Source of the DNA: Acrocarpospora phusangensis
GTDB lineage: Bacteria; Actinomycetota; Actinomycetes; Streptosporangiales; Streptosporangiaceae
NCBI RefSeq assembly: GCF_016862995.1
Contig: NZ_BOOA01000013.1
Coordinates: forward strand, 1-64,000
Reading direction: 5' to 3'
Length of the DNA stretch: 64,000 bases
Shown piece by piece: positions 10,379 to 64,000 of the stretch. How positions within the stretch are numbered: the first letter of the stretch is position 1; every line of letters begins with the position of its first letter. A program made the translations under genes and the position numbers. The notes under the pieces are model-generated. The model made no database searches. It had not been told where the DNA came from and worked only from the letters and a program-made list of their open reading frames with translations.

Positions 10379-11920
10379 TTATCCGCGCTGCTCGGATGGC
10401 CAGTACTCGTCGCGGAGGAGGCGCTTGTAAAGTTTCCCGGTCGGGTGGCGCGGCAGCTCGGCGCGGAAGTCCACGCTCTTCGGGCATTTGTAGTGGGCGA
10501 GCCCGGCGCGGCAGTAGGCGATCAGCTCGGCCTCCAGGGCGGGCCCGGCCTCCGCCGGGTCGGCGGCCTGCACGACGGCCTTGACCTGTTCGCCCATCTC
10601 CTCGTCCGGCACCCCGAAGACGGCCACGTCGGCCACCTTGGGATGCACGGCCAGCAGGTTCTCCGCCTCCTGCGGGTAGACGTTCACCCCACCCGAAATG
10701 ATCATGTACGACCTGCGGTCCGTGAGGTAGAGGAAGCCCTCCTCGTCCACGTACCCGATGTCGCCCAGCGTGGTCCAGCCGCGGCCGAGCGGATCCCGGG
10801 ACGACCGCGTCTTCTCCGGATCGCCGTGGTACTCGAAGGCAGGCCCGTCCGAGAAGTAGACCGTGCCGTGCTCCCCCGGCCCCAGTTCGGCGCCGTCCTC
10901 GTCGCACACGTGCAGCACGCCGAGCAGCGGGCGGCCTACCGTGCCGCGGTGTTTCAGCCAGTCCTCGGGCCCGGCGTAGAGGAAGCCGTTGCCCTCGGTG
11001 CCGGCGTAGTACTCGTGCACGATCGGCCCCCACCAGTCCATCATCCGCTCCTTGACCGGCACCGGGCAGGGCGCGGCCGCGTGGATGGCGCAGCGCAGCG
11101 ACGACAGGTCATGGCGGGCGCGCGTCTCGGCGGGGAGTTTGAGGAGTTTGATGAACATGGTGGGGACCCACTGGGAGTGGGTCACGCCGTACCGCTCGAT
11201 GGCGGCCAGGGCGGCTTCGGGGTCGAAGCGCTCCATGACGACGACGGTGGCGCCGAACCGCAGGAAGGTGAGGCAGTAGCGCAGCGGCGCCGCGTGGTAG
11301 AGCGGCGCGGGCGACAGGTAGACGCTGTCGGCGCTGGGCGCGAACAGGAACTGCACGAGCTGCATGAGCGGCCCGGGGGTGTCCAGCGTGGCCATGCTCA
11401 GCGGCGGTTTCACACCCTTCGGGCGCCCGGTCGTGCCGGACGAGTACAGCATGTCCGCACCCTGGCATTCGTCCGGTACGGCAGTCGCCGGGTGTCGCGC
11501 CACCGCCTCCTCGTACGAGGCGAATCCGGGGGCGACGCCGTCCAGCATGAGGCGGATCTCGACGCCGCCGGCGGCGGTGACCGCCACCTCCGCCACCTCC
11601 TCCAGGGCCTTCGAGGCGATGAAGGCGCGGGCCTCGCAGTTCTCCAGGATGTAGGCGAGCTCGCCCGCCTGGAGGCGGGAGCTGATCGCGGTGTAGTAGA
11701 GGCCGGACCGGTGCGCGGCCCACGCGACCGCCAGGAACAGCGGGTGGTTCTCCAGCATGAACGCGATGTGGTCCCCCGGCCGCAGCCCCGCCGCGCGCAG
11801 CAGGTGGGCCAGCCGGTTGGACTCCTCGTCCAGCTCTCGGTACGTGACGACCCGCCCGGACCCCGCCATGATCACGGCGGCTCTGTCGGGGGTGGCGGCG
11901 GCGATGGCTCCCGGGTGCAT
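10379..11920 (-). CDS. AMP-binding acyl-CoA synthetase
   Basis: 513 residues, ANL superfamily. Phosphate-binding loop YSSGTTGRPKG near residue 170, the YYAGTEGNGF segment (~310) of the A5 region, GDIGYVDEEGFLYLTDR (~395), and the C-terminal PTGKLYKR with the catalytic lysine (~500). It should activate a fatty or other carboxylic acid to the CoA ester in the cytosol. The FadD4-like pattern is common in actinomycete catabolic loci, but the substrate cannot be read. A 6-bp inverted repeat sits just before the start codon. Confidence 0.88.
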   Translation of the reverse strand: MHPGAIAAATPDRAAVIMAGSGRVVTYRELDEESNRLAHLLRAAGLRPGDHIAFMLENHPLFLAVAWAAHRSGLYYTAISSRLQAGELAYILENCEARAFIASKALEEVAEVAVTAAGGVEIRLMLDGVAPGFASYEEAVARHPATAVPDECQGADMLYSSGTTGRPKGVKPPLSMATLDTPGPLMQLVQFLFAPSADSVYLSPAPLYHAAPLRYCLTFLRFGATVVVMERFDPEAALAAIERYGVTHSQWVPTMFIKLLKLPAETRARHDLSSLRCAIHAAAPCPVPVKERMMDWWGPIVHEYYAGTEGNGFLYAGPEDWLKHRGTVGRPLLGVLHVCDEDGAELGPGEHGTVYFSDGPAFEYHGDPEKTRSSRDPLGRGWTTLGDIGYVDEEGFLYLTDRRSYMIISGGVNVYPQEAENLLAVHPKVADVAVFGVPDEEMGEQVKAVVQAADPAEAGPALEAELIAYCRAGLAHYKCPKSVDFRAELPRHPTGKLYKRLLRDEYWPSEQRG

Positions 11921-16041: not shown

Positions 16042-16133
16042 TAACAGGAGTGCAGCCGTGTTCCCAGATCTGCGCGTGTTCGCTGTGAGCGAGCGTAATC
16101 GTGTAATCAGGCATCTCTGGGGGTGACGCGAAA

Positions 16134-16153
16134 CATCACACCGGGGTGTGATG
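16134..16153. promoter_or_regulatory. 20-bp palindrome before the sensor kinase gene
   Basis: CATCACACC (16134-16142) and GGTGTGATG (16145-16153) are perfect 9-bp arms around GG, ending 33 bp before the kinase ATG. A likely operator, possibly for the response regulator of the same operon. Confidence 0.5.
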
Positions 16154-16186
16154 CGGGAGACAACAGCGGATTTCTAGCGTGAGGCC

Positions 16187-17455
16187 ATGATTTTCTCTCA
16201 GCTGGTACGGCTCCCGCGGGGCCTGCTGGACGCCCTGGCCCTCGGCCGGGCCAGCCCTGACCGGCCCGACAAACCCCGGCTGGCCTACGCCACCGATGCC
16301 GGCTTCTTCCTGCTGATCTTCTACTTCGTCTTCTCCATGCTCCTCGCCGACGAGAGTCCCCTGGACTCGGTGGTCTTCGAAAGCGACGGCGGGCCCACCG
16401 GGACACAGATCCGGATCTGGGACATCGAGCGCGTGCACGACGGCCTGCTGGCCCTGGCCGCCTTCGCCTCGGCCTCCCCGCTGCTGCTGCGCCGCCGCTG
16501 GCCGCTGTGGGCCTGGCGGTACGCGACGGTGGCGCTCTTCCTGGTCGCGCCGATCGTCCTCCAGGTCGGGACGGGCCCGGTCACGAGCGGCGCGGTCATC
16601 GTGTACGCGGCCTGCCTCTACACGGTGGCCGTCCGCTGCCCCGGACCCACCACGGCGGGGGTGGGCGTGTGGTCGGTGGCCGCGATGTACTTCCTGCCGG
16701 AGAAGCCGGAGGTGATGAGCTTCGGGCCGGTGATGAGCTTCGGGCCGTTCCTGGTCGCGGGGGTGCTGGCGCTCGGGTGGAACGTGCGGCGGCGCAGGCA
16801 GGCCGCCGGGGACCTGGCCGTCGAGCACGACGCCAGGGCGCTGCTCGCCGAGCGGGCCAGGATCGCCCGCGAGCTGCACGACGTGGTCGCCCACCACGTG
16901 TCCGTGATCGCGATCCAGGCGGAGGCGGTTCCGTTGCAGGCCAAGGGCGACCGGGGGCGGCTGGAGGCGGGCCTGGCCGGCATCAGGGAGCTGTCGCTGG
17001 AGGCGCTCCAGGAGATGCGGCGGGTGCTGGGCGTGCTGAGGGACGAGGACGGCGGGGCCGACACCGCGCCGCAGCCCGGCCTGGGACGCCTGGCGGAGCT
17101 GGCCGCCAACGCCCGGAGCGCGGGGCTGACGGTGGAGCTGCCGGCCGAGGTGCCCGAGGTGCCGGCGGCGGTGGGGCTGTCGGTGTACCGGATCGTGCAG
17201 GAGTCGCTCAGCAACGCGATGCGGCACGCCCCGGGGAGCCGGGTGCGGGTGGAGCTGACCCGGTCCGGGACCGAGCTGACGGTGGTGGTCGCCAACGGGG
17301 GCGGCAGCCGTACCGGGCTCGGGTCCGGCGAGGGGCAGGGGCTGATCGGGATGCGGGAGCGGGCGGCGATGCTGGGGGGCTCGTTCAGCGCCGGGCCGGT
17401 TCCCGGGGGCGGGTACCAGGTGCGGGCCACGCTGCCACTGGCGGCGGACGCGTGA
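16187..17455 (+). CDS. NarL-type sensor histidine kinase
   Basis: 422 residues. About five hydrophobic segments occur in residues 35-200, then a HisKA_3 dimerisation domain with phospho-acceptor His231 in ARELHDVVAHH, and an HATPase domain ending with GQGLIGMRERAAMLGG. This class usually autophosphorylates in response to an envelope signal and passes phosphate to the LuxR-type regulator encoded next, whose GTG overlaps this stop by 4 bp. An exact 18-bp tandem duplication (16712-16747) repeats VMSFGP in the last extracytoplasmic loop, perhaps a recent slippage event. Confidence 0.9.
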   Translation: MIFSQLVRLPRGLLDALALGRASPDRPDKPRLAYATDAGFFLLIFYFVFSMLLADESPLDSVVFESDGGPTGTQIRIWDIERVHDGLLALAAFASASPLLLRRRWPLWAWRYATVALFLVAPIVLQVGTGPVTSGAVIVYAACLYTVAVRCPGPTTAGVGVWSVAAMYFLPEKPEVMSFGPVMSFGPFLVAGVLALGWNVRRRRQAAGDLAVEHDARALLAERARIARELHDVVAHHVSVIAIQAEAVPLQAKGDRGRLEAGLAGIRELSLEALQEMRRVLGVLRDEDGGADTAPQPGLGRLAELAANARSAGLTVELPAEVPEVPAAVGLSVYRIVQESLSNAMRHAPGSRVRVELTRSGTELTVVVANGGGSRTGLGSGEGQGLIGMRERAAMLGGSFSAGPVPGGGYQVRATLPLAADA

Positions 17456-18090
17456 CGATCCGCGTGCTGATCGCGGACGACCAGGGCATGGTCCGGGCGG
17501 GCTTCGCGGCCTTCCTGAACACCCAGCCCGACATCGAGGTCGTCGGCGAGGCCGCCGACGGGGCGGAGGCGGTGGCCAGGACGGCGGAGCTCGAACCCGA
17601 CGTGGTGCTGATGGACATCCGCATGCCGGGCATGGACGGCATCACCGCCACCGGCCTGATCCGCACCGCGCGGGTGCTCATCCTCACCACCTTCGACCTC
17701 GACGAGTACGTCTACGCGGCGCTCCGCGCGGGCGCCAGCGGCTTCCTGCTGAAGGACGCCTCCGCCGCGCAGCTGGCGGAGGCGGTCCGGGTGGTGGCGG
17801 CCGGGGAGGCGCTGCTGTCGCCCCGGGTGACCCGCCGCCTGATCGCCGAGTTCACCCGGCTGCCGGCGCGGAGCCGGGTGAAGGTGGAGCGCATCACCGA
17901 CCGGGAGACCGAGGTGCTCACGCTGATCGCGCGGGGGCTGTCCAACCAGGAGATCGCGCGGGAGCTGGTGGTCTCCGAGCAGACGGTGAAGACGCACATC
18001 GGGCGCGTCCTCGCCAAACTGGGGCTGCGGGACCGGGCGCAGGCCATCGTGTACGCGTACGAGATCGGCCTCGTGCGCCCAGGTTCATGA
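17452..18090 (+). CDS. LuxR/NarL-family response regulator
   Basis: 212 residues, GTG start overlapping the kinase stop (GTGA). Receiver domain with Asp9-Asp10, phospho-acceptor Asp55 (VVLMDIRMPG), Thr in ILTTFD and Lys in FLLKDAS; C-terminal GerE helix-turn-helix (TDRETEVLTLIARGLSNQEIA... SEQTVKTHIGRVLAKLGLRDR). Likely acts on promoters carrying sites like the palindrome upstream of its operon. No clear target gene can be named, although heme oxygenase lies just downstream. Confidence 0.92.
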   Translation: MTIRVLIADDQGMVRAGFAAFLNTQPDIEVVGEAADGAEAVARTAELEPDVVLMDIRMPGMDGITATGLIRTARVLILTTFDLDEYVYAALRAGASGFLLKDASAAQLAEAVRVVAAGEALLSPRVTRRLIAEFTRLPARSRVKVERITDRETEVLTLIARGLSNQEIARELVVSEQTVKTHIGRVLAKLGLRDRAQAIVYAYEIGLVRPGS

Positions 18091-18098
18091 CACACTGT

Positions 18099-18137
18099 CG
18101 TCAAGTTGTTGACGCGCCCATCCGTCTTTTGTGACAC
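18099..18137 (+). promoter_or_regulatory. Weak promoter with inverted repeat before heme oxygenase
   Basis: CGTCAA-GTTG-TTGACG (18099-18114) is an inverted repeat whose right arm doubles as a -35 TTGACG; a -10-like GACACT follows after about 18 bp. An AAGGAG ribosome site lies 6 nt before the heme oxygenase ATG. No iron-box sequence is seen here. Confidence 0.35.
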
Positions 18138-18168
18138 TTCGTCATGAAGAACCCTTAAAGGAGTTTGG

Positions 18169-18804
18169 ATGGGCTTTTCCGAGGTGTTGCGGGCGGCGAC
18201 CTGGTCGGACCACGCGTCCGCCGAGGATGACGGCTACCTGAAGAGCCTGATGGCCGGGCGGCTCAGCCCCGAGGCGTACGGCGCGATGGTGGCCCAGCAC
18301 TATTTCGCCTACCTGGCGCTGGACGGGGCCGCGAAGGCGCTCGCGGACCACCCGGTCGCGGGCGCGTTCGTCTTTCCCGAGCTGTACCGCGAGGAGGCCC
18401 TGGTCCGCGACCTGACGACGATCTTCGGCGCGAACTGGGCGGACCACATCGAACCCAGCAAACCCACCCAGACGCTGGTGGCCCGCATCAACCAGGTCGC
18501 CGACCGGCCCGGCGGCTACATCGCCCACCACTACACTCGTTACCTCGGCGACCTGTCCGGCGGCCAGTTCATCCGGATGGAACTCCAGAAGATCTACGGG
18601 TACGGAAGGGGCGGCGGCGTGGACTTCTACTACTTCGACATCGGCAGCCTGCCCCGCTTCAAGGACGAGTACCGGCGGCGCCTGGACGCGCTCGACCTGG
18701 ACGAGGCCGGGCAGCAGCGCATCATCCGGGAGACCAAGCTCGCCTACCAGCTCAACACCGAGGTCTTGGGCGACCTCGGCCGGCTCGCGCGGGCAGCGGC
18801 CTGA
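18169..18804 (+). CDS. Biliverdin-forming heme oxygenase
   Basis: 211 residues, the usual length of HmuO/HO-1-type enzymes. Proximal heme ligand His15 in TWSDHASAE, and the distal helix GDLSGGQ with its flexible glycines near residue 128. It opens heme to biliverdin, CO and free iron using reductase electrons, in the cytosol. The ATG has AAGGAG upstream. The following TetR gene begins one base after the stop, so the two are probably one transcript. Iron release here fits the iron-uptake operon elsewhere in the window. Confidence 0.92.
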   Translation: MGFSEVLRAATWSDHASAEDDGYLKSLMAGRLSPEAYGAMVAQHYFAYLALDGAAKALADHPVAGAFVFPELYREEALVRDLTTIFGANWADHIEPSKPTQTLVARINQVADRPGGYIAHHYTRYLGDLSGGQFIRMELQKIYGYGRGGGVDFYYFDIGSLPRFKDEYRRRLDALDLDEAGQQRIIRETKLAYQLNTEVLGDLGRLARAAA

Positions 18805-54501: not shown

Positions 54502-55779
54502 GTGAGCGACTCCACGACCGAGGCAGCCGAGATCTGCTCGCGGCTGCTCCGCATCGACAGCACCAATCCCGGCCCCGGTGAGCGCACGGCCGCGGAGTAT
54601 GTGGCGGGCCTGCTCGCGGAGGCGGGCGTGGAACCGGTCATGGTCGAGTCGGCGCCGCGCCGTACCAGCGTGATCGCTCGCGTTCCCGGGGACTCTCCCG
54701 ACGCGCTGCTCATCCACGGTCACCTGGACGTGGTGCCCGCCGACCCCGCCGAGTGGAAGCTGCACCCGCTCTCCGGCGAGATCGCCGACGGCTGCGTGCA
54801 CGGCCGCGGGGCGGTCGACATGAAGGGCAGCCTGGCCATGACCCTGGCCCTGGTCCGCGACCTGGCCCGCCGCGGCGTGCGCCCCCGCCGCGACCTGGTC
54901 CTGGCCTTCCTCGCCGACGAGGAGTCCACCGGGGAGTACGGCTCCCGCTACGCCGCCGAGCGGCACCGCGACCTCTTCGACGGCTGCACCGAGGCGATCA
55001 GCGAGTCCGGCGGCTTCACCGTCACCGCGGACGGCGCCAGGATCTACCCCGTGGCCGTCGCCGAGCGCGGCACCGCGTGGATGCGGGTCACCGCCCGCGG
55101 CGTACCCGGCCACGGCTCCAAGCCGCCCGTCGACAACCCGGTCGCCGAACTGGCCCGCGCCCTGGCCCGGCTGGCCGACCACACCTGGCCCGTGCGGCTC
55201 ACGCCGGCCGTCGCCGCCCTGATCAGGGGCATCGGCCAGGCGCTCGGCACGAGCATCGACCTGGGCGACCTGGACGCCGAGCTGAAGCGCCTGCCGCCCA
55301 CGGCCGCGGCCCTGTTCAAGGGCGTCATCCGCAACTCGGTCAACCCGACCATGGTCAACGCCGGCTACAAGGTGAACGTGATCCCCGGCACCGCCGAGGC
55401 CACCCTGGACGGGCGTTTCCTGCCGGGCACCCACGAGGACTTCCTGGCCACCGTCGACCGCCTGCTCGGTCCCAAGATCACCCGGGAGTTCGTCAACTTC
55501 GAGGAGGCGCCCTCCGCCCCCGCGCACGGCCTCTTCGACGACCTCTGCGCGGCCCTGCGCCGGGAGGACCCGTCCGCCCGCCCGGTCCCGTACGTCATGA
55601 CCGGCGGCACCGACGCCAAGTCCTTCGCCCGCATCGGCATCCCCAGCTACGGCTTCGCGCCCCTGCTGCTGCCGCCGGACCTGGACTATTTCACCATGTT
55701 CCACGGAATCGACGAACGTGTGCCCGTTTCGGGCCTCGACTTCGGCGTCCGCGTGCTCAACCATCTCGTTGGCGGGTAA
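54502..55779 (+). CDS. M20-family metallopeptidase/deacylase
   Basis: 425 residues, GTG start. Di-zinc site: HGHLDVVP (~73), GRGAVDMKG (bridging Asp, ~100), ADEESTGEYG (base Glu, ~137), and the last His of the C-terminal MFHGIDERVP. The dimerisation domain has GHGSKPPVDNPV (~203). Substrates of this family are N-acyl amino acids or dipeptides; none can be chosen here. Divergent from the NRAMP-like gene. Confidence 0.9.
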   Translation: MSDSTTEAAEICSRLLRIDSTNPGPGERTAAEYVAGLLAEAGVEPVMVESAPRRTSVIARVPGDSPDALLIHGHLDVVPADPAEWKLHPLSGEIADGCVHGRGAVDMKGSLAMTLALVRDLARRGVRPRRDLVLAFLADEESTGEYGSRYAAERHRDLFDGCTEAISESGGFTVTADGARIYPVAVAERGTAWMRVTARGVPGHGSKPPVDNPVAELARALARLADHTWPVRLTPAVAALIRGIGQALGTSIDLGDLDAELKRLPPTAAALFKGVIRNSVNPTMVNAGYKVNVIPGTAEATLDGRFLPGTHEDFLATVDRLLGPKITREFVNFEEAPSAPAHGLFDDLCAALRREDPSARPVPYVMTGGTDAKSFARIGIPSYGFAPLLLPPDLDYFTMFHGIDERVPVSGLDFGVRVLNHLVGG

Positions 55780-55806
55780 CACAGGCCCACGCACAAGGCG
55801 GAGACG

Positions 55807-56283
55807 ATGCGGGTAGCCGTGACCGGTCACCGGGATCTCAGCCCGGGGACCGCCGACCTGGTCCGTACGGCGCTGGAAGGCCTGCTCGTCCCGCACGGCG
55901 CGGAGGTGGTGGGCGTCTGCTGCCTGGCCCCGGGGGCCGACCAGATCTTCGCCGAGACGGTCCTGCGCCTGGGCGGCCGGCTGGAGGCCATCGTCCCGGC
56001 CCGCGCGTACGGCTCCGCCCTGCCGCCGCCCGACCGGGAGCGTTTCGAGGGGTTGCTGGACCGGGCCGACCCGGTGCGCCGCCTGTCCCACGAGGAGCCG
56101 ACGCCGGCCGTCTTCGCGGCGGCCAACGAGGTGATGCTGGCGGACGCCGACGTGCTGGTGGCGGTCTGGGACGGCGGGCCCTCGCGCGGCGTGGGCGGGA
56201 CGGCGGAGGTCGTGGACGCGGCGCGGCGCCGGCGCATCCGGGTGGAGATTCTCTGGCCGGAAGGCGCCGAGCGCCTCAGCTGA
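55807..56283 (+). CDS. SLOG-like small nucleotide-binding protein
   Basis: 158 residues. Rossmann-like: MRVAVTGHRDLSPGTA (start), GVCCLAPGADQIFAETVLRLGGRLEAIVPA, and ADVLVAVWDGGPSRGVGGTAEVVDAARRRRI. The GHR start and GAD(Q/T).F(A/V)E motif are those of SLOG-type proteins that bind nucleotide or nucleotide-sugar ligands, and such domains occur in signalling and defence loci. It ends 320 bp before the FxsA precursor, so a link to that locus is possible but unproved. Confidence 0.6.
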   Translation: MRVAVTGHRDLSPGTADLVRTALEGLLVPHGAEVVGVCCLAPGADQIFAETVLRLGGRLEAIVPARAYGSALPPPDRERFEGLLDRADPVRRLSHEEPTPAVFAAANEVMLADADVLVAVWDGGPSRGVGGTAEVVDAARRRRIRVEILWPEGAERLS

Positions 56284-56603
56284 TAAGACAAATGGCGCAC
56301 GATCCGACATATAGCCAAATCGCCACTTTCGGAACGTTAGTCCCGTTCTTCTTTGAAACCTTACTGTGTGGTTACGTTTACGATAGTATATCGATACCCA
56401 GTTATCTCGGTTTGATCACAGATAAGAATTTTGCTCGCACTGCGTGTACGCTTTGTCACCTCTTGAGAGCAGGGCTTAAAAAATCAAACCGAGGGACACG
56501 TCACTTCCCGCAACAAGGCAATGGCGAAGCGTTAGGCTGCAGGGTGCTGGATGGCACCTGCGCTCGAGCGCTTCTTAGCGCCGTAAGCGGCCTAACTTCG
56601 GAA
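56284..56603 (+). other. A+T-rich region upstream of fxsA
   Basis: 320 bp without a convincing gene. By hand count 56341-56460 contains 51 G or C in 120 bases (about 43%), far below the surrounding DNA. It has the palindrome TATCGATA and CGATA-gta-TATCG (within 56381-56398), which could be a promoter or operator. One frame is open through it into fxsA, but its codons are not of the local type. Confidence 0.6.
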
Positions 56604-56786
56604 ATGGATAAAATGATCACCAAGGCAGAAACGCCGAACCTCGCCTCAGCCGTCATGGATGTTCATGACTTTTCGCTTGAGGAGCTCACGACCCAGGGTT
56701 CGCACCGCTCGTCCCTGGCCAGAATCGTGCCGATGGCGTCGGACAACCCCAGAGTCGCCGTAGCCGCCTTCCAGTCGTCTCTATAG
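56604..56786 (+). CDS. fxsA: FxSxx-COOH RiPP precursor peptide
   Basis: 60 residues, starting MDKMITKAETPNLASAVMDV and ending AVAAFQSSL, so the last five residues FQSSL fit the FxSxx-COOH signature exactly. The middle (VHDFSLEELTTQG) has the leader-like acidic amphipathic part that the maturase probably recognises. FxsB installs a cyclophane crosslink between the Phe ring and a neighbouring Ser or other residue in this family. No strong ribosome site is seen; ATG 56613 is an alternative. It is 17 bp from fxsB. Confidence 0.85.
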   Translation: MDKMITKAETPNLASAVMDVHDFSLEELTTQGSHRSSLARIVPMASDNPRVAVAAFQSSL

Positions 56787-56803
56787 CACTGGATCGGGGC
56801 GAC

Positions 56804-59026
56804 GTGAGTGGGATTATCCTGCCGTTCGATCAGTTTGTCCTGAAAATTCATAGCCGTTGTGATCTCGCTTGCGACCACTGCTATGTCTACGAGCACGCTG
56901 ACCAGAGCTGGCGCGGCCGCCCCAAAGCCATGTCCGTCGAAACGGCGGCATTAGCCGCCGAGCGCATCGCCGAGCACGTCGAAGAGCACGACGTGAAAAA
57001 TATTCACGTCGTGCTCCACGGGGGCGAGCCATTGCTGGCCGGTCACGACCTGCTGGCCGACATCATCCGCGTGCTCCGGGAACGCCTCGACGGAATCTGC
57101 CATCTTGATCTTCGAATCCATACCAACGGCGTCACCCTCGACAGCAGGTTCTGCGACCTTTTCGCCAAAAATCAGATTAAAGTCGGAATTTCCCTGGACG
57201 GCGACCGGATCGCGAACGACCGGCACCGGTTGTACGCGAACGGCCGCTCCAGCTACGACCAGGTGATCAAGGCGATCGCCCTGCTCCGCGCCCGCCCGGA
57301 GATCTACGCGGGCCTGCTCTGCACCATCGACGTCGCCAACGATCCGATCGCCGTCTACGAAGCCCTCGTCGCCCTCCAGCCGCCCCGGGTCGACTTCCTG
57401 CTCCCGCACGCCACCTGGGACGAGCCGCCGCCGCGCCCGTCCGCCACCGCCTACGCCGACTGGCTGATCACGATCTTCGACCGCTGGCAGGCGGACGGCC
57501 GCCCGGTCCCGGTGCGCCTCTTCGAGTCGGTGATCAACACCGTCCAGGGCCGCGGCAGCCTCAGCGAGGCCATCGGCCTGGAGCCCACCACCCTCGTCGT
57601 GATCGAGACCGACGGCGGCTACGAGCAGGTCGACTCGCTCAAGGTGGCCTTCGACGGCGCCCCGGCCACCGGCTTCGACCTGGCCGGGCACTCGCTCAAC
57701 GAGGTGGCAGGGCACCCCGGCGTGCGGGCCCGCCAGCGCGGCCTGGACGGGCTCTCCGCCACCTGCCGGGCCTGCCCGGTGGTCCGCAGCTGCGGCGGCG
57801 GGCTCTACCCGCACCGGTTCCGGGACGGCTCCTTCGACAACCCGAGCGTCTTCTGCGCCGACCTGCTCGCCCTCATCTCACATATCCGGGACAACACCGC
57901 GATGATCAACCCGGCGAACAACCACGGCATGCCCGCCGCGACCTACGACGCCCTGGCCTCCGGGTTCGGGGACGGCGGCGACATCGAGACGCTGGCCCGG
58001 TCGCAGTCGAGCCTCCAGCGCATGATCGTCGCGTCGCTGCCGGACCGGCCGCCCGCGGCCTGGGACCTGCTCGTGGCGCTCGACCGCGACCACCGCGCCA
58101 CCCTGCTCACGGTGCTGGCCCATCCGTACGTGCGGGTCTGGGCGGCCACGCGGGCCCACGCCGGTCCCGGCTACCTGGCCAACATCGCCGCCGCGGCGGC
58201 GTACCGGGCGGGGCTCTCCGTGCGGGTGCCGGTGGCGGTGACCGGCGGCTCGGTGCACCTGCCCACCGTAGGCACGTTCGACGAGGTGCCGGGCGACACC
58301 GCCACGCTGGTCGTCGAGGCGGGCTCCGCCTGGATCGACGGGCCCGCGACCGCGCTGATCGGGACCCGCCGCCTCCGCTCCGGGGACTTCTCCGTCCTGC
58401 TGGAGGACCGCGACCCGAACCGCGACTGCCACCAGTGGCCGGCCGCCGCCACGCTCGGCAAGGCCGACGCCGACGCCTGGCAGGAGTGCTTCGACCCCGC
58501 CTGGCGGCTCATCGAGTCCGACTACCCCGCGTACGCGGAAGGGCTGCGCGCGGGGCTGTCCACGATCATGCCGCTCGCCCCCGCGCCCGCGGGCAAGGAC
58601 GTGTCCTCCACGGCCAGGCACGCGTTCGGCGCCGTCGCCGCCGCCCTGCCCGCCGACCCGGCCACCCTGGCGCTGCTGCTCATCCACGAGTTCCAGCACG
58701 TCAAGCTGGGCGCCCTGCTCGACCTCTTCGACCTGTACGACGAGTCGGACACCACGCTCTATCACGCCCCCTGGCGCCAGGACCCGCGACCGCTCGAAGG
58801 GCTGCTGCAGGGCACGTACGCGCACATCGCGGTCAGCGATTTCTGGCGGGTGCGTCGCGACCGCGTCACCGGGCCGGAGCAGGTGAGGGCGCGGGAGCAG
58901 TACACGCTCTGGCGCGGCCACACCGAGGGGGCCATCGAGACGCTGTCCGCCTCGGGCCGGCTCACGGTCTTCGGCGACCGGGCCGTCGCCCGCATGCGGC
59001 GGACCGTCCAGGGCTGGGAGAGCTGA
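56804..59026 (+). CDS. fxsB: FxsB radical SAM/SPASM cyclophane-forming maturase
   Basis: 740 residues, GTG start. The SAM [4Fe-4S] motif CDLACDHC (Cys19, 23, 26) is followed by a TIM barrel and a SPASM-like cysteine cluster (CRACPVVRSCGGG, then FCADL near residue 350). Unlike most radical SAM maturases it has a second half of ~370 residues ending in a zinc-protease-like motif HEFQH (628-632), typical of FxsB. It modifies the FxsA tail. Whether the HEXXH half cleaves the product is not known. Confidence 0.93.
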   Translation: MSGIILPFDQFVLKIHSRCDLACDHCYVYEHADQSWRGRPKAMSVETAALAAERIAEHVEEHDVKNIHVVLHGGEPLLAGHDLLADIIRVLRERLDGICHLDLRIHTNGVTLDSRFCDLFAKNQIKVGISLDGDRIANDRHRLYANGRSSYDQVIKAIALLRARPEIYAGLLCTIDVANDPIAVYEALVALQPPRVDFLLPHATWDEPPPRPSATAYADWLITIFDRWQADGRPVPVRLFESVINTVQGRGSLSEAIGLEPTTLVVIETDGGYEQVDSLKVAFDGAPATGFDLAGHSLNEVAGHPGVRARQRGLDGLSATCRACPVVRSCGGGLYPHRFRDGSFDNPSVFCADLLALISHIRDNTAMINPANNHGMPAATYDALASGFGDGGDIETLARSQSSLQRMIVASLPDRPPAAWDLLVALDRDHRATLLTVLAHPYVRVWAATRAHAGPGYLANIAAAAAYRAGLSVRVPVAVTGGSVHLPTVGTFDEVPGDTATLVVEAGSAWIDGPATALIGTRRLRSGDFSVLLEDRDPNRDCHQWPAAATLGKADADAWQECFDPAWRLIESDYPAYAEGLRAGLSTIMPLAPAPAGKDVSSTARHAFGAVAAALPADPATLALLLIHEFQHVKLGALLDLFDLYDESDTTLYHAPWRQDPRPLEGLLQGTYAHIAVSDFWRVRRDRVTGPEQVRAREQYTLWRGHTEGAIETLSASGRLTVFGDRAVARMRRTVQGWES

Positions 59027-59396
59027 CCCGCCCGCGACATCTTTCCCACGCGTATCCCTATCGCCGCGCCGAATATCGGTATTCGGCCCGCCCACCCGTA
59101 CGGGCCTCTCGTCATGCCGCCGATTTCAGGTACGGTCGGACCTGGGTGGAATACGGTGAAATCGTGCCCGGCGGAACGGAATCACGCTCGGCCGGGCGCT
59201 GATTCCGTGCGGGCCGTAAAGGGTAAGCGCGGCGTGCTCGGAAACGCGTATTCCCCGGTTGTTTCCTGTGCCCATAACGGTAGATTTCGCCACAGATTGG
59301 GTGTGACAACGGAGAAATCCCATCGAAATATTCCTCACGGGCACTCCTTCGGACTAATCTGCGTTCCTACGGTAAAGCCCGCGAGGAAGGAGGCGG
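59027..59396. other. Intergenic region fxsB-fxsC with hairpin
   Basis: 370 bp with no convincing gene. GCCGAATA (59068-59075) and TATTCGGC (59080-59087) form an 8-bp stem with a TCGG loop shortly after fxsB, a likely processing or termination structure. The ATG of fxsC has AAGGAGG upstream (59385-59395 region). A promoter for fxsC may lie in the A+T-richer part near 59290-59370, but no clean hexamers are seen. Confidence 0.5.
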
Positions 59397-60659
59397 ATGG
59401 CACCAAACCCGACCTCACGATCGGTGGTCCAAGGCCCCTGCTTCTTTCTCAGCTACGCGCACATCCCGGGCCTCGACTCCACCCGCGGGCCCGACCCGAA
59501 CAGATGGGTGGCGAGACTCTTTATCGATCTCTCCGAGATCGTCCTGAACGAGACAAAACTCAAGGCCGCACAGGCCGGATTCATGGATCGCGGCATTCAG
59601 TCCGGCGACCGATGGCCGGAGCAGCTGGCCGGCGCGCTGGCCACCTGCCGGGTTTTCATCCCGTTGTACTCGCCCCGCTACTTCGACAGCCAAGAATGCG
59701 GGAAGGAATGGACGGCTTTCGCCCAGCGGCTGGAGGCGACACCCGATCGCGGCAACCGGCTCACCGCCATCATCCCGGCTCTCTGGGCGCCGCTCCAGGA
59801 TCCTGAGCATCTGCCGAAATGCGCGCAGGAAATTCAGTTCGACCACGAGATGTTCGGCCCCCGATATCGCCAGGAGGGCTTCTACGGGCTGATGAAGTCC
59901 CGGTCGATGCGCACACACTACGAGACCGCCATCAAGGCGCTGGCGCGCCGGATCATCAAGGTGGCCGAGCAGGATCTCGTGCCGCCCGGCGAGCCCGTCG
60001 ACTACATGAGCCTGACCAGCGCGTTCCACGACGCGGCGGGCGAACCGCCGGCCAAGTCCAGCTCGCCCCGGATGCGGCTGACCGTGGTCGCGCCCGACCT
60101 GTCCCGGCTGCCGGATGGGCGGCTCACCGAGTCGTACGGGCAGACTCCGCAAGAATGGAATCCGTTTCCGAAACCCGGCGAGCACCGGCCGCTGGCCTCC
60201 TATGCGATGGAACTGGCGCTGCGCCACGGATATCTTCTCGAAGTCGGCTCATTCGACAATCACGTCGAACACCTCACCGGCGCGGGCGGCCCCGACGCGC
60301 CCAGCGTGCTCGTCGTGGATCCGTGGGCGGCGCGGCACGCGGAAACGCGGGAAGTGCTGCGCCGCGTTTGCGGGCAGGACCGGCGGCCGCAGCCGATCGT
60401 GCCGTGGAACCTTCAGGACGAGCAGACGGCGGCGGCGGAATCCGAGTTGCGCGCGTTGCTCCGCGAGGTCATTCCGGAACGGCCCGGTCTGCCCGTCGTC
60501 AGCCACATCTCCTCACTGGGCGCATTTCAGCGGGGGCTGCCGAGAATTTTCACCAGTGCCGCCAAGAGCTACTTGAAGTCGGCGCCCAACTATTCCCCCC
60601 GTGGCGTGCCCGGCACCCGACCGCGACTGACGAAGACGGAGGATTCCGATGGTAAGTGA
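59397..60659 (+). CDS. fxsC: TIR-like protein FxsC
   Basis: 420 residues. N-terminal TIR-like domain (1-~185): GPCFFLSYAHIPG, WVARLFIDLSEIVL, DRGIQSGDRWPEQLAGALATCRVFIPLYSPRYF, ECGKEW. TIR domains of bacteria often cleave NAD or make signals from it; the catalytic Glu may be in ECGKEW. The second half (~210-390) repeats a weaker alpha/beta pattern (MRLTVVAPDL; PSVLVVDPWA). Always found with FxsA/FxsB/FxsT; its job is unknown. The stop overlaps the fxsT start by 11 bp. Confidence 0.88.
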   Translation: MAPNPTSRSVVQGPCFFLSYAHIPGLDSTRGPDPNRWVARLFIDLSEIVLNETKLKAAQAGFMDRGIQSGDRWPEQLAGALATCRVFIPLYSPRYFDSQECGKEWTAFAQRLEATPDRGNRLTAIIPALWAPLQDPEHLPKCAQEIQFDHEMFGPRYRQEGFYGLMKSRSMRTHYETAIKALARRIIKVAEQDLVPPGEPVDYMSLTSAFHDAAGEPPAKSSSPRMRLTVVAPDLSRLPDGRLTESYGQTPQEWNPFPKPGEHRPLASYAMELALRHGYLLEVGSFDNHVEHLTGAGGPDAPSVLVVDPWAARHAETREVLRRVCGQDRRPQPIVPWNLQDEQTAAAESELRALLREVIPERPGLPVVSHISSLGAFQRGLPRIFTSAAKSYLKSAPNYSPRGVPGTRPRLTKTEDSDGK

Positions 60660-63600
60660 CCAGAATGGCAAGATCATCACCTTCTATTCGTTCAAGGGCG
60701 GAACCGGCCGCACCATGGCCCTCGCCAACACCGCGTGGATTCTGGCCAGCCACGGCCGACGTGTTCTGGTCATCGACTGGGACCTGGAATCGCCCGGTCT
60801 GCACCGCTTCTTTCACCCCTTCCTGGACGAGAGTGTGATCGCCGCCACGAAGGGGGTGGTGGACATGATCACGGACTATCAGTGGGCCACCACGTCCCCG
60901 CATGACGAGCCTGACTGGCACAGGGAGTACGCCCGGGTCACCCGGCACGCGGTCTCCCTGGAGAAATGGGACTTCCCCGGCGCGGGCACCTTGGACTTCC
61001 TCTCCGCCGGGCGTCGCAACCGCGACTATTCCTCGCTGTCCACCTTCGACCTCGACGTCTTCTATGAGCGGGGCGGCGGGCAGTTCCTGGACGCCCTGCA
61101 GGCCGACATGCGCCGCAACTACGACTACACGCTGATCGACAGCCGTACCGGGTTCAGTGATATCGCGGACATCTGCACCATCGCGTTGCCGGACGTGCTG
61201 GTCGACTGCTTCACCATGAGCGACCAGAGCATCGACGGGGCCGCCGAGGTCGCCCGGATCATCGACAAGCAGTATCCCGACCACAACATCCGCATCCTGC
61301 CGGTGCTCATGCGGGTGGACGACGGGGAGAAGAAGAAGGTCGACGCGGGGCGCATGCACGCCAGGGACCAGTTCGTCGGGTTCCCGAAGGGGCTCTCGCC
61401 GGACGGGGTGAAGAACTACTGGGCGACCATCGAGGTGCCGTACAAGCGGTTCTACGCGTTCGAGGAGACGCTGGCGACGTTCGGGGACAGCCCGGGGTCG
61501 CCGGGGTCGCTGCTGTCCGCGTACGAGCGGCTCACCTCGGCCATCACCGACGGGACCGTGGCGGCCATGCCGCCGATGGAGGAGACCGTGCGGCTGCGCT
61601 GGCTGGAGGCGTTCACCCGGCGGCAGCCCGCCCAGCATCCCGACATCCGGCTGAGCTACGCGCCGGAGGACCGCATGTGGGCGGACTGGGTGATGGCCGT
61701 GCTGGAGCAGGCCGGCTTCCGCGTCACCCCCGTCACCCGGTACGGCTCCGCCGACCGCTCCCCCGCCCAGGAGATGCCCGAGTCGGCCAGCACGGTGGTC
61801 ATCCTCTCCCCGGCCTACCTGCGGGGTTCACAGCGGGACGAGTGGCCGTCCAGCGCCGACCTGCCGACCGGGACACCGCCGGACGTGGTCTCGCTGCGGG
61901 TCTCCGACGCCGTACGGCTGACCATGCCGGTGGGTGAGCGCCCGCCGGTGGACCTGGTCCGGCTCAGCTCGGAGGACGCCGTCGAGGCGGTGCTGCGCGC
62001 GGTCGGCAGGGCGGGGCACGGCCACGACACGATCGAGCTGTCCCAGCTGGGCACCCGCTACCCGGGCACCCAGCCGTCCATCTGGAGCGTCGGCGCCCGC
62101 AACGCCTCCTTCACCGGCCGCAACATCGCCCTGGAGACGCTCCGCAACCAGCTGCTGGGCAGCAGCCAGGCCGTGGTCCTCCCCCAGGCCCTGTACGGCA
62201 TGGGCGGCGTCGGCAAGACCCAGGTCGCCCTGGAGTACGCGCACCGCTTCGCGGCCGACTACGACCTGGTCTGGTGGATCCCGGCCGAGCAGCCCGACCT
62301 GATCAACCCGATGCTGGCGGAGCTGGCCAGGCGGATCGGCCTGCCGGTCAGCGACAGCGTGGTGGAGGGCGCGCTGGCGGCCAGGGAGGCGCTGCGGCGG
62401 GGCGAGCCGCACGCCCGCTGGCTGCTGATCTTCGACAACGCGGGCGACCCGGAGGAGCTCAAGCCGTTCCTGCCGGGCGGCACCGGCCACGTGATCGTGA
62501 CCTCCCGGATCCAGACCTGGTCGAACATCGCGGCGCCGCTGGAAGTGGACGTGTTCAGCCAGCAGGAGAGCGTGGAGCACCTGCTCCGCCGGGTGCCCCG
62601 GCTGGCCCCCGCGGACGCGCTGAGCGTGGCCGAGGAGCTCGGCTTCCTGCCGCTGGCGGTGGAGCAGGCGGCGGCCTGGCTGAGCGAGACCGGTCTTTCG
62701 GCCGCCGAATACGTGACCCAGCTGCAGAAGCAGGCTCCCAGGATCCTGGCCATGAACCGGCCGACGGACTACGAGAACTCGGTCGCGGCCACCTGGAACG
62801 TCTCGCTGGAGCAGCTGCGCAGCAGGTCGCCCGCGGCCGAGCGCATGCTCCAGCTCTGCGCGTACTTCTCCCCCGACCCGATCTCGCTGTCGCTGATCTA
62901 CAGCGACGACATGATGCGGGCGCTGCTGCCGTACGACGACTCGCTGCGCGGCGAGAAGCTGGTGCTGGGGCGGGTGATCCGGGAGATCAGCCGGTTCGCG
63001 CTGGCGAAGATCGACCAGGGCAGCAAGACCATCCAGGTGCACCGCCTGGTGCAGACGGTCATCCGGGACCAGATGTCCTCCGACGACATCGAGACCATCT
63101 CCCACCAGGTCCACCACATCCTGGTGGCGGCCCGCCCGCAGACCGGCGAGGTGGACGACCCGGAGAACTGGCAGCAGTACGACCTGATCTGGCCGCACCT
63201 GCTGCCCTCCGACGCGGAGAAGTGCGTGGAGGAGGAGACCAGGCAGCTGCTCACCGAGCGGGTCCGCTACTGGTGGAAGCGCGGCGAGTACGACAGCGCC
63301 CTCCAGCTGGGCCAGCGCCTGGCCGACTACTGGGAGGAGAAGTTCGGGCAGTTGGAGCGGCAGCGGCTGCACATGCTGTTCAACATCGCCAACGTGCTCC
63401 GCTCCCAGGGCAACTTCGCGGAGGCGCGCAAGCTGGACGAGTGGGTGCTGGCCCAGCAGAGCAAGACGCTGAAGGAGAACCACCCGCACACGCTGATGAC
63501 GACCGGCGGCCTGGCGGCCGACCTGCGGGCGCTCGGCGAGTTCGCCCGCGCGCTGGAGATGGACCGCAACAACCACGAGCAGTGGAAGGAGACCTACGGC

Positions 63601-64000
63601 GAGGACTACCCGCGCACCCTCAACTCGGCCAACAACCTGGCCGTGTCCTACCGGCTGGTGGGCGACTGGCGCAGCGCCAAGGAGCTGGACGAGGACACCC
63701 TGCAGCGCATGGGCGAGGTGTTCGGCCCGGGGCACCCGTACACGCTGAGCACGGCGCAGAACCTGGCCAGGGACATGCGCGAGGCGGGCGAGTTCGCGGC
63801 GTCGGTGGAGCTGCTCAACCGGACCCTGACGGGCTACAGCATGCTCCAGTTCGACGACTACCCGGACGCGCTGCGGGCCGCCAAGAGCATCGCGGTCTCG
63901 CTGCGGCGGGCCGGCGAGCGGCAGGAGGCGCTGAAGCGGGCCCAGGACACCCACGACCACTACCAGCGGCTGTTCCCGTTCCACCCGGAGTCCAGCGCGG
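60649..64000 (+). CDS. fxsT: FxsT multidomain MinD/TIR/NB-ARC/TPR protein (3' end missing)
   Basis: At least 1117 residues, cut by the window edge. Start ATG 60649 with GGAGGA 6 nt upstream, inside the end of fxsC. Order: MinD/ParA-type P-loop (KGGTGRT, 16-22), a TIR-like segment (~330-450, LSYAPEDRMWADWV), an NB-ARC/STAND ATPase with Walker A YGMGGVGKT (~520), and tetratricopeptide repeats from ~890. STAND proteins oligomerise on sensing a ligand, so FxsT may sense the peptide or a target. Family known only from FxSxx-COOH loci. Confidence 0.9.
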   Translation, partial: MVSDQNGKIITFYSFKGGTGRTMALANTAWILASHGRRVLVIDWDLESPGLHRFFHPFLDESVIAATKGVVDMITDYQWATTSPHDEPDWHREYARVTRHAVSLEKWDFPGAGTLDFLSAGRRNRDYSSLSTFDLDVFYERGGGQFLDALQADMRRNYDYTLIDSRTGFSDIADICTIALPDVLVDCFTMSDQSIDGAAEVARIIDKQYPDHNIRILPVLMRVDDGEKKKVDAGRMHARDQFVGFPKGLSPDGVKNYWATIEVPYKRFYAFEETLATFGDSPGSPGSLLSAYERLTSAITDGTVAAMPPMEETVRLRWLEAFTRRQPAQHPDIRLSYAPEDRMWADWVMAVLEQAGFRVTPVTRYGSADRSPAQEMPESASTVVILSPAYLRGSQRDEWPSSADLPTGTPPDVVSLRVSDAVRLTMPVGERPPVDLVRLSSEDAVEAVLRAVGRAGHGHDTIELSQLGTRYPGTQPSIWSVGARNASFTGRNIALETLRNQLLGSSQAVVLPQALYGMGGVGKTQVALEYAHRFAADYDLVWWIPAEQPDLINPMLAELARRIGLPVSDSVVEGALAAREALRRGEPHARWLLIFDNAGDPEELKPFLPGGTGHVIVTSRIQTWSNIAAPLEVDVFSQQESVEHLLRRVPRLAPADALSVAEELGFLPLAVEQAAAWLSETGLSAAEYVTQLQKQAPRILAMNRPTDYENSVAATWNVSLEQLRSRSPAAERMLQLCAYFSPDPISLSLIYSDDMMRALLPYDDSLRGEKLVLGRVIREISRFALAKIDQGSKTIQVHRLVQTVIRDQMSSDDIETISHQVHHILVAARPQTGEVDDPENWQQYDLIWPHLLPSDAEKCVEEETRQLLTERVRYWWKRGEYDSALQLGQRLADYWEEKFGQLERQRLHMLFNIANVLRSQGNFAEARKLDEWVLAQQSKTLKENHPHTLMTTGGLAADLRALGEFARALEMDRNNHEQWKETYGEDYPRTLNSANNLAVSYRLVGDWRSAKELDEDTLQRMGEVFGPGHPYTLSTAQNLARDMREAGEFAASVELLNRTLTGYSMLQFDDYPDALRAAKSIAVSLRRAGERQEALKRAQDTHDHYQRLFPFHPESSA

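Follow-up and report, generated by a model that had tools for sequence, protein, structure and literature searches.

An FxSxx-COOH peptide locus of Acrocarpospora phusangensis with recurrent alpha/beta hydrolase and SLOG/SLATT neighbours: a possible signalling module

Overview

We analyzed the first 64,000 nucleotides of contig NZ_BOOA01000013.1 of Acrocarpospora phusangensis (NCBI RefSeq assembly GCF_016862995.1), hereafter the window, in which the genes fxsA, fxsB, fxsC and fxsT all lie in the same direction (+). Judged by its sequence, the locus is an intact member of the known FxsABCT (FxSxx-COOH) kind, whose biological role can only be inferred. What is new here is that an alpha/beta hydrolase (ABH) gene is near-constant, and a SLOG/SLATT gene pair recurrent, at FxsC loci, which makes a richer variant of the known FxsABCT. 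We tentatively read the locus as a peptide-linked STAND/TIR signalling module, a reading that we hold to be possible rather than probable. For the FxSxx peptides, ABH and, in many relatives, SLOG/SLATT are concrete candidate partners.

Recurrence of the flanking genes

Two samples of loci were used. The first, taken from the FxsC alignment, comprises the best 80 of 427 loci, thirty-two from Streptosporangiaceae and forty-eight from Streptomycetaceae as assigned by genus name. The second comprises the loci of the window's relatives (100 genomes), fetched on account of FxsB or FxsC; some of the 80 FxsC loci repeat loci of this second set (L047 and L086 denote one region).

An ABH gene was found in 77 of the 80 FxsC loci, and the remaining three are cut by contig ends at or before the end of FxsT. 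It was placed downstream and convergent in 67 loci and upstream in ten. Among the relatives' loci showing both the MinD part and the 3' part of FxsT, ABH was adjacent in 19 of 20, the exception being L077. The incomplete loci were mixed: L068 has ABH with the FxsT start beyond the contig, L057 is truncated where its contig stops, and the fragmentary L066 is without ABH, as are L073 and L074, where FxsT was matched only to residues 420 and 325, respectively. In L055, one FxsT runs into the end of a contig, and a further match, without ABH, covers FxsT residues 1-329 only. None of the nine loci with a short FxsT (L012, L063, L064, L080-L085) carried ABH. From 24 ABH matches of at least 297 bits in the 100 relatives, 22 lie beside FxsT, one at a contig edge and one, in L069 (G003 contig C24, 8886-9764), without FxsT in the 20 kb fetched. 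In the window's genome, ABH adjoins FxsT in each of three paralogous loci. The candidate catalytic triad is S102 (95/96 aligned), D248 (96/96) and H276 (96/96).

SLATT was detected by tblastn in 53 and SLOG in 51 of the 80 FxsC loci. In the 69 well-flanked loci, defined by flanks of at least 6.5 kb ahead of FxsC and 1.5 kb beyond FxsT (which excludes L086, a locus with SLOG and no SLATT), SLOG and SLATT occurred together in 48, SLATT alone in three, SLOG alone in none and neither in 18. The pair takes four arrangements relative to the fxs genes. Ten genomes picked for having a SLATT gene at the locus each yielded a single SLATT_3 match, which overlaps that gene, and the one SLATT_3 match of genome G016 lies 0.9 kb from FxsB. 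In L119 the SLATT protein is a tandem of SLATT_3 and SLATT_1 (129 and 108 bits). By tblastn, 37 of the 80 loci carry a gene for an AAC(3)-like acetyltransferase. Of the 26 called as open reading frames (ORFs), two come directly after FxsB; the other 24 are situated between FxsB and FxsC or immediately ahead of FxsC.

Among the 80 saved clusters of ORFs of at least 80 residues, only FxsB, FxsC, FxsT, ABH, SLATT, SLOG and AAC(3) occur in more than five loci of both clades together. The clustering left out ORFs under 80 residues or with unusual codon-position GC content, so FxsA stands outside it, and its counts for SLOG (44) and AAC(3) (26) are lower than those of tblastn. The view of the locus as FxsABCT only was rejected, as ABH and, in part, SLOG/SLATT recur. 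The sequence-only reading had left the upstream SLOG gene unused, and the ABH gene, lying beyond the window end, was outside its view.

Precursor and FxsB

Table 1. Features of the fxs locus (window positions; the window ends at 64000).
Feature	Position	Strand	Length	Remarks
SLOG-fold (YpsA-like) protein	55807..56283	+	158 aa	predicted nucleotide-derivative sensor or enzyme
AT-rich leader of fxsA, intergenic	56284..56603	+		49.7% GC, against 71.6% GC for the window
fxsA precursor	56604..56786	+	60 aa	ATG start, C-terminus FQSSL; sequence MDKMITKAETPNLASAVMDVHDFSLEELTTQGSHRSSLARIVPMASDNPRVAVAAFQSSL
fxsB	56804..59026	+	740 aa	fusion of a radical SAM/SPASM half and an alphaKG-HExxH hydroxylase-like half
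AAC(3)-like acetyltransferase remnant, possible	59059..59256	+		tblastn to a Thermocatellispora protein, 42 bits, E 1e-7
fxsC	59397..60659	+	420 aa	TIR domain and FxsC C-terminal domain
fxsT	60649..64554 (beyond the window end)	+	1301 aa	MinD-like domain, degenerate TIR, NB-ARC, TPRs
ABH	64523-65443 of the contig, just past the window end	-	306 aa	tail-to-tail with fxsT; Abhydrolase_1, 69.8 bits

The sequence-only reading had described a short gene with the FxSxx-COOH signature directly before FxsB, and this was borne out: 17 base pairs separate the fxsA stop from the GTG start of fxsB. A second in-frame ATG at 56613 is a possible alternative start. The F.S.. ending occurs in only one of 376 stop-terminated ORFs of at least 30 residues on both strands of the window, and that one is fxsA. 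Its match to TIGR04268 (FxSxx-COOH) is 23.7 bits (expectation value, E, 4e-5), under the curated 28-bit cut-off, and the name fxsA therefore leans on motif, position and relatives. Across the 100 genomes this model gave matches at E 1 in 98 and exceeded its cut-off in just 18, and for this reason FxsA was sought by position. In a survey of 96 FxsB loci, into which some genomes enter twice, an upstream ORF ending in F.[SATG].. was found in 90; three of the six loci without a detected FxsA (L096, L113, L141) hold only part of FxsB. All 81 distinct tails have F at -5, as the search required; position -3 is S in 78, with S, A, T and G permitted, and position -1 is L or I in 78. In a comparison with the orthologous Acrocarpospora corrugata locus, a single pair analyzed by the Nei-Gojobori method, the ratio of nonsynonymous to synonymous substitution rates was 0.10 for FxsA, 0.25 for FxsB, 0.16 for FxsC, 0.11 for FxsT, 0.14 for ABH and 0.26 for SLOG.

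FxsB matched TIGR04269 with 577 bits (cut-off 370) and TIGR04267, the 'aKG-HExxH-type peptide beta-hydroxylase' family (aKG, alpha-ketoglutarate), with 166 bits (cut-off 40). Both halves appear intact: the radical SAM (S-adenosylmethionine) half has the CxxxCxxC motif (56858-56881) and further cysteines, and the second half has HEFQH (58685-58699, residue 628). The best PDB sequence match is the radical SAM domain of ChlB (9gm3, E 1.6e-87), and residues 379-738 have the PDB relatives 22nu/22ob (E 1.3e-74). MscB presumably shares its InterPro entry with FxsB. Passages of PMC11002830 report that MscB forms a cyclophane between Phe C4 and Ser Cbeta, and passages of PMC12636437 report that a radical-SAM-fused HExxH protein beta-hydroxylates despite its metallopeptidase annotation.

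Of 46 Streptomycetaceae FxsB, 45 are without the HExxH motif; L151 retains it, and the frames of L141 and L148 are incomplete, being cut or truncated. When the comparison was restricted to FxsB frames above 600 residues with a detected FxsA (89 rows, 83 distinct), the motif was absent in 42 of 42 Streptomycetaceae and in three of 47 others, a distribution that needs two changes on the tree. Two Streptomycetaceae FxsB that were scanned exceed the cut-off of NF040587, the 'inactivated beta-hydroxylase extension form'. FxsA, FxsC, FxsT and ABH persist where HExxH is lost, and HExxH activity therefore seems dispensable for the core function of the locus. A link of the FxsA residue at -2 (Ser or Ala) to HExxH loss was dropped as a between-clade pattern confounded with clade; the three HExxH-less loci outside Streptomycetaceae, with two Ser and one Ala, do not bear it out.

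FxsC and FxsT

FxsC scored 201 bits with NF040588 and 126 bits with TIGR04276, both above the curated cut-offs, and its TIR_2 match in Pfam (41.8 bits) is also over the cut-off. Glu104 (codon 59706-59708) is invariant in the 98 aligned proteins. By TIR motifs, we take this residue to be at the position of the TIR catalytic Glu. The AlphaFold2 model has a mean predicted local distance difference test score (pLDDT) of 87.1 and a predicted template modelling score of 0.67, and its best PDB fold matches are TIR domains (RUN1, E 6e-4; SPARTA, E 9e-4).

FxsT was scanned with NCBIfam and Pfam profiles in its part inside the window, which gave 856 bits with NF040586, above the curated cut-off, and 141 bits with NF047398. 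The MinD-like domain contains KGGTGRT and the NB-ARC domain an intact P-loop, GMGGVGKT; R21 of the MinD-like motif and K523 and T524 of the P-loop are each invariant in 97 of 97 aligned proteins. In the same 97, no Glu of the TIR region is conserved at 97%. Given the invariance of FxsC Glu104, the invariant P-loop and R21 of FxsT and the lack of a conserved Glu in its TIR, the comparison suggests that FxsC is a putative enzyme and FxsT a switch and scaffold. The family assignments of the sequence-only reading, an FxsABCT set with a TIR-like FxsC and a MinD/TIR/NB-ARC/TPR FxsT, thus agree with the curated models, FxsA being below its cut-off. Its general impression of a signalling or conflict module also holds, and Kaur et al. 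2020 (PMC7159879) had suggested that the peptide is a toxin or a signal.

Proposed mechanism

On family membership and precedent, the radical SAM half of FxsB would join Phe(-5) to Ser(-3) of FQSSL in a three-residue cyclophane, and the HExxH half could hydroxylate the FxsA peptide. All steps beyond this FxsB chemistry are inferred. The modified C-terminal tail may be a ligand or guard of the FxsT TPRs, its presence or loss switching the NB-ARC domain. FxsT, with its own TIR lacking a conserved Glu and an Arg replacing Lys in its MinD-like motif, would act as a scaffold that activates FxsC, and the FxsC TIR would convert NAD+ (nicotinamide adenine dinucleotide) to a nucleotide signal. SLOG may read this signal, and SLATT, a two-transmembrane protein, would receive the relay where it is encoded and act at the membrane. 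ABH would be a core partner, possibly trimming or clearing the peptide or the signal. In passages of PMC9503650, YpsA-clade SLOG as a cyclic ADP-ribose (cADPR) sensor and SLATT as an ADP-ribose-regulated effector are stated or predicted.

A wider claim is more doubtful. FxsABCT could be the input half of a larger actinomycete circuit, running from a cyclophane peptide through a STAND scaffold and a TIR enzyme to a linked SLOG and a dedicated SLATT, with a near-constant ABH. The ribosomally synthesized and post-translationally modified peptide (RiPP) would then be the intracellular ligand of a protein resembling an NLR (nucleotide-binding, leucine-rich-repeat receptor), and the peptides of an FxsB-less locus (contig C8, described below) would be matured in trans. 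This would place a cyclophane-bearing ribosomal peptide as a ligand within an NLR-like signalling circuit and would provide a testable sequence of events, from peptide to STAND switch, TIR product, SLOG and membrane. The recurrent flanking genes in Streptomyces suggest that the locus is approachable by ordinary gene deletion.

The window SLOG was modelled with a mean pLDDT of 95.3, and G7, H8, G43, D45 and GGT130-132 are invariant in 55 of 55 aligned proteins. No Pfam model exceeded its cut-off, and PF06908 gave 16.6 bits (cut-off 27.7). Its best PDB fold match is Bacillus subtilis YpsA (2nx2, E 3e-9), followed by DprA, ShosA and LOG.

Several observations weigh against the signalling reading. 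The SLOG structure of ThsA with 3'cADPR ranks only 28th in the fold search (E 1e-3); since YpsA, DprA and LOG outrank it, the window SLOG may be an enzyme or bind another ligand. The FxsC fold matches are weak. SLATT was found in 44 of 48 Streptomycetaceae but nine of 32 Streptosporangiaceae FxsC loci, and in the loci of the window's relatives SLATT was present in one of 21 and SLOG in four of 21. The SLOG/SLATT arm is therefore optional, rare in the family of the window and chiefly a feature of Streptomycetaceae. A SLOG gene with no accompanying SLATT is seen in the window, L047/L086, L054 and L062. The window's genome (G000) gave no match to SLATT_3 or SLATT_1 (PF18184, PF18181), whereas the same searches found both in G016, and, going by its genome, the SLATT step is thus inapplicable to this strain, where the output would be SLOG alone, ABH or something unseen. 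Loci within one clade also share flanking genes and hence are non-independent.

Alternative explanations

Rather unlikely, in our estimate, is a secreted RiPP signal or natural product, in which the modified FxsA tail is exported and acts between cells, FxsT is an AfsR-like NB-ARC/TPR regulator, and FxsC and ABH serve maturation or immunity. The radical SAM RiPP architecture and the adjoining conserved hydrolase are compatible with it, and FxsT matches the SARP regulator AfsR with 60 bits over 483-734, although this is far under the 1430-bit cut-off and the Pfam scan of the in-window part of FxsT gave no DNA-binding domain. Nothing resembling a transporter or a dedicated leader peptidase is among the seven families that the two clades share; one minor cluster (five loci, three and two) is transporter-like by eye only and was not scanned.

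We consider an anti-phage abortive defence of the TIR/STAND type, with the peptide as trigger or inhibitor, similarly improbable. Passages of PMC7159879 and PMC9503650 count TIR, STAND ATPase, SLOG and SLATT among the typical parts of conflict systems, and the MinD part of FxsT matches the PADLOC candidate PDC-M28B with 78 bits. However, no PADLOC model at E 0.01 matched FxsC, ABH or the window SLOG, and FxsB reached 41 bits at most with the viperin models, as radical SAM proteins may. Inheritance within clades appears stable and chromosomal, with flanking family c7 recurring in 32 and c8 in 29 of the 48 Streptomycetaceae loci, and an M20 gene in 13 of 32 loci outside that family.

That SLOG, SLATT and ABH are passengers held by ordinary synteny is less probable still, and we regard it as decidedly unlikely. 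Other flanking genes are indeed common to loci within each clade, and the SLOG/SLATT pair is missing from many Streptosporangiaceae loci, but ABH lies beside FxsT in three paralogous loci of the window's genome and takes two positions across the sample, the pair varies in its placement as described, and no other flanking cluster that bridges the clades exceeds five loci.

The sequence-only reading had raised the idea of a peptidase in the HExxH half of FxsB, one that cuts FxsA and releases its C-terminal peptide. We now find this very unlikely: HEFQH is intact in the window, Kaur et al. 2020 (PMC7159879) attribute the cleavage of such precursors to a metallopeptidase, and passages of PMC12636437 report oxidative and, without leader, hydrolytic backbone cleavage by a related HExxH enzyme, but the matched family carries a beta-hydroxylase name and the motif losses and 'inactivated' forms given above occur with the rest of the locus retained.

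Relation to known systems

The standalone FxsABCT system (Kaur et al. 2020, PMC7159879; TIGR04268, TIGR04269, TIGR04276, NF040588, NF040586) has the same FxSxx-tail precursor, FxsB, FxsC and AP-ATPase with an inactive MinD-like domain. Its occasional partner there is a CRP-like factor; section 24 and further passages of that paper gave no link to SLOG, SLATT, ABH or AAC(3), though its figures may show one. In the open-access papers searched and these passages, figures and supplements aside, no link of FxsABCT to ABH, SLOG or SLATT was found, and absence from print is not claimed.

The triceptide, or three-residue cyclophane, enzymes MscB and ChlB are likewise radical SAM/SPASM peptide maturases, the product of the window FxsB being only predicted. 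Thoeris and other TIR-SLOG systems likewise encode TIR and SLOG together, and the SLOG structure of ThsA, the SIR2-SLOG effector of Thoeris, was solved with 3'cADPR. Unlike Thoeris, the TIR and SLOG of the window locus sit with a STAND protein and a predicted modified peptide, and the neighbour of SLOG is SLATT in 48 of the 69 well-flanked loci. The MoxR-vWA and GAP1 conflict systems, in passages of Kaur et al. 2020 (PMC7159879), use the same effector kinds, SLATT or an alpha/beta hydrolase; unlike in those systems, none of the seven common families was assigned to VMAP, vWA or MoxR, at which no search was aimed.

Leader, remnant and other fxs loci

Upstream of fxsA, a leader block (56500-56534) is conserved in A. 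corrugata, with a 30-base core containing one mismatch. A pattern search recovered the copies of the window's strain and A. corrugata, plus one match with seven mismatches in L119 on the other strand, and an Rfam search of 55700-56900 gave a single match (E 0.83), far under its gathering score. The possible AAC(3)-like remnant, at a place where relatives have such a gene, aligned to the A. corrugata protein over 59064-59153 only (35 bits, E 4e-5).

Contig C8 (L010, 116001-136000) of the window's genome has two tandem short ORFs ending in FNSSI (ends 8972 and 9356, +) upstream of FxsC, the first gene of an intact FxsC-FxsT-ABH set that lacks an adjacent FxsB, which suggests that these peptides are possible precursors matured in trans. 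The sequence-only reading had named fxsA homologues without any FxsB partner as evidence against its view. Contig C8 provides such a case in cis only, whereas the genome has FxsB genes above the cut-off on contigs C13 and C49.

Contig C67 carries FxsC, FxsT and ABH with no adjoining FxsB. In L010, positions 16070-18527 hold a shorter FxsT-like ORF of 506 residues, which matches FxsT 1-476 only, and next to it a convergent alpha/beta hydrolase of its own. On contig C25 (L013, 7642-10437), an FxsC-like region closes a 931-residue ORF, and the 20 kb fetched gave no match to FxsT, FxsB or ABH. Contig C49 (L012, 5580-10657) has a split-type second locus, in which FxsB and the HExxH protein are separate and a short FxsT lies on the opposite strand, with a precursor near 10870 that ends in FDASL.

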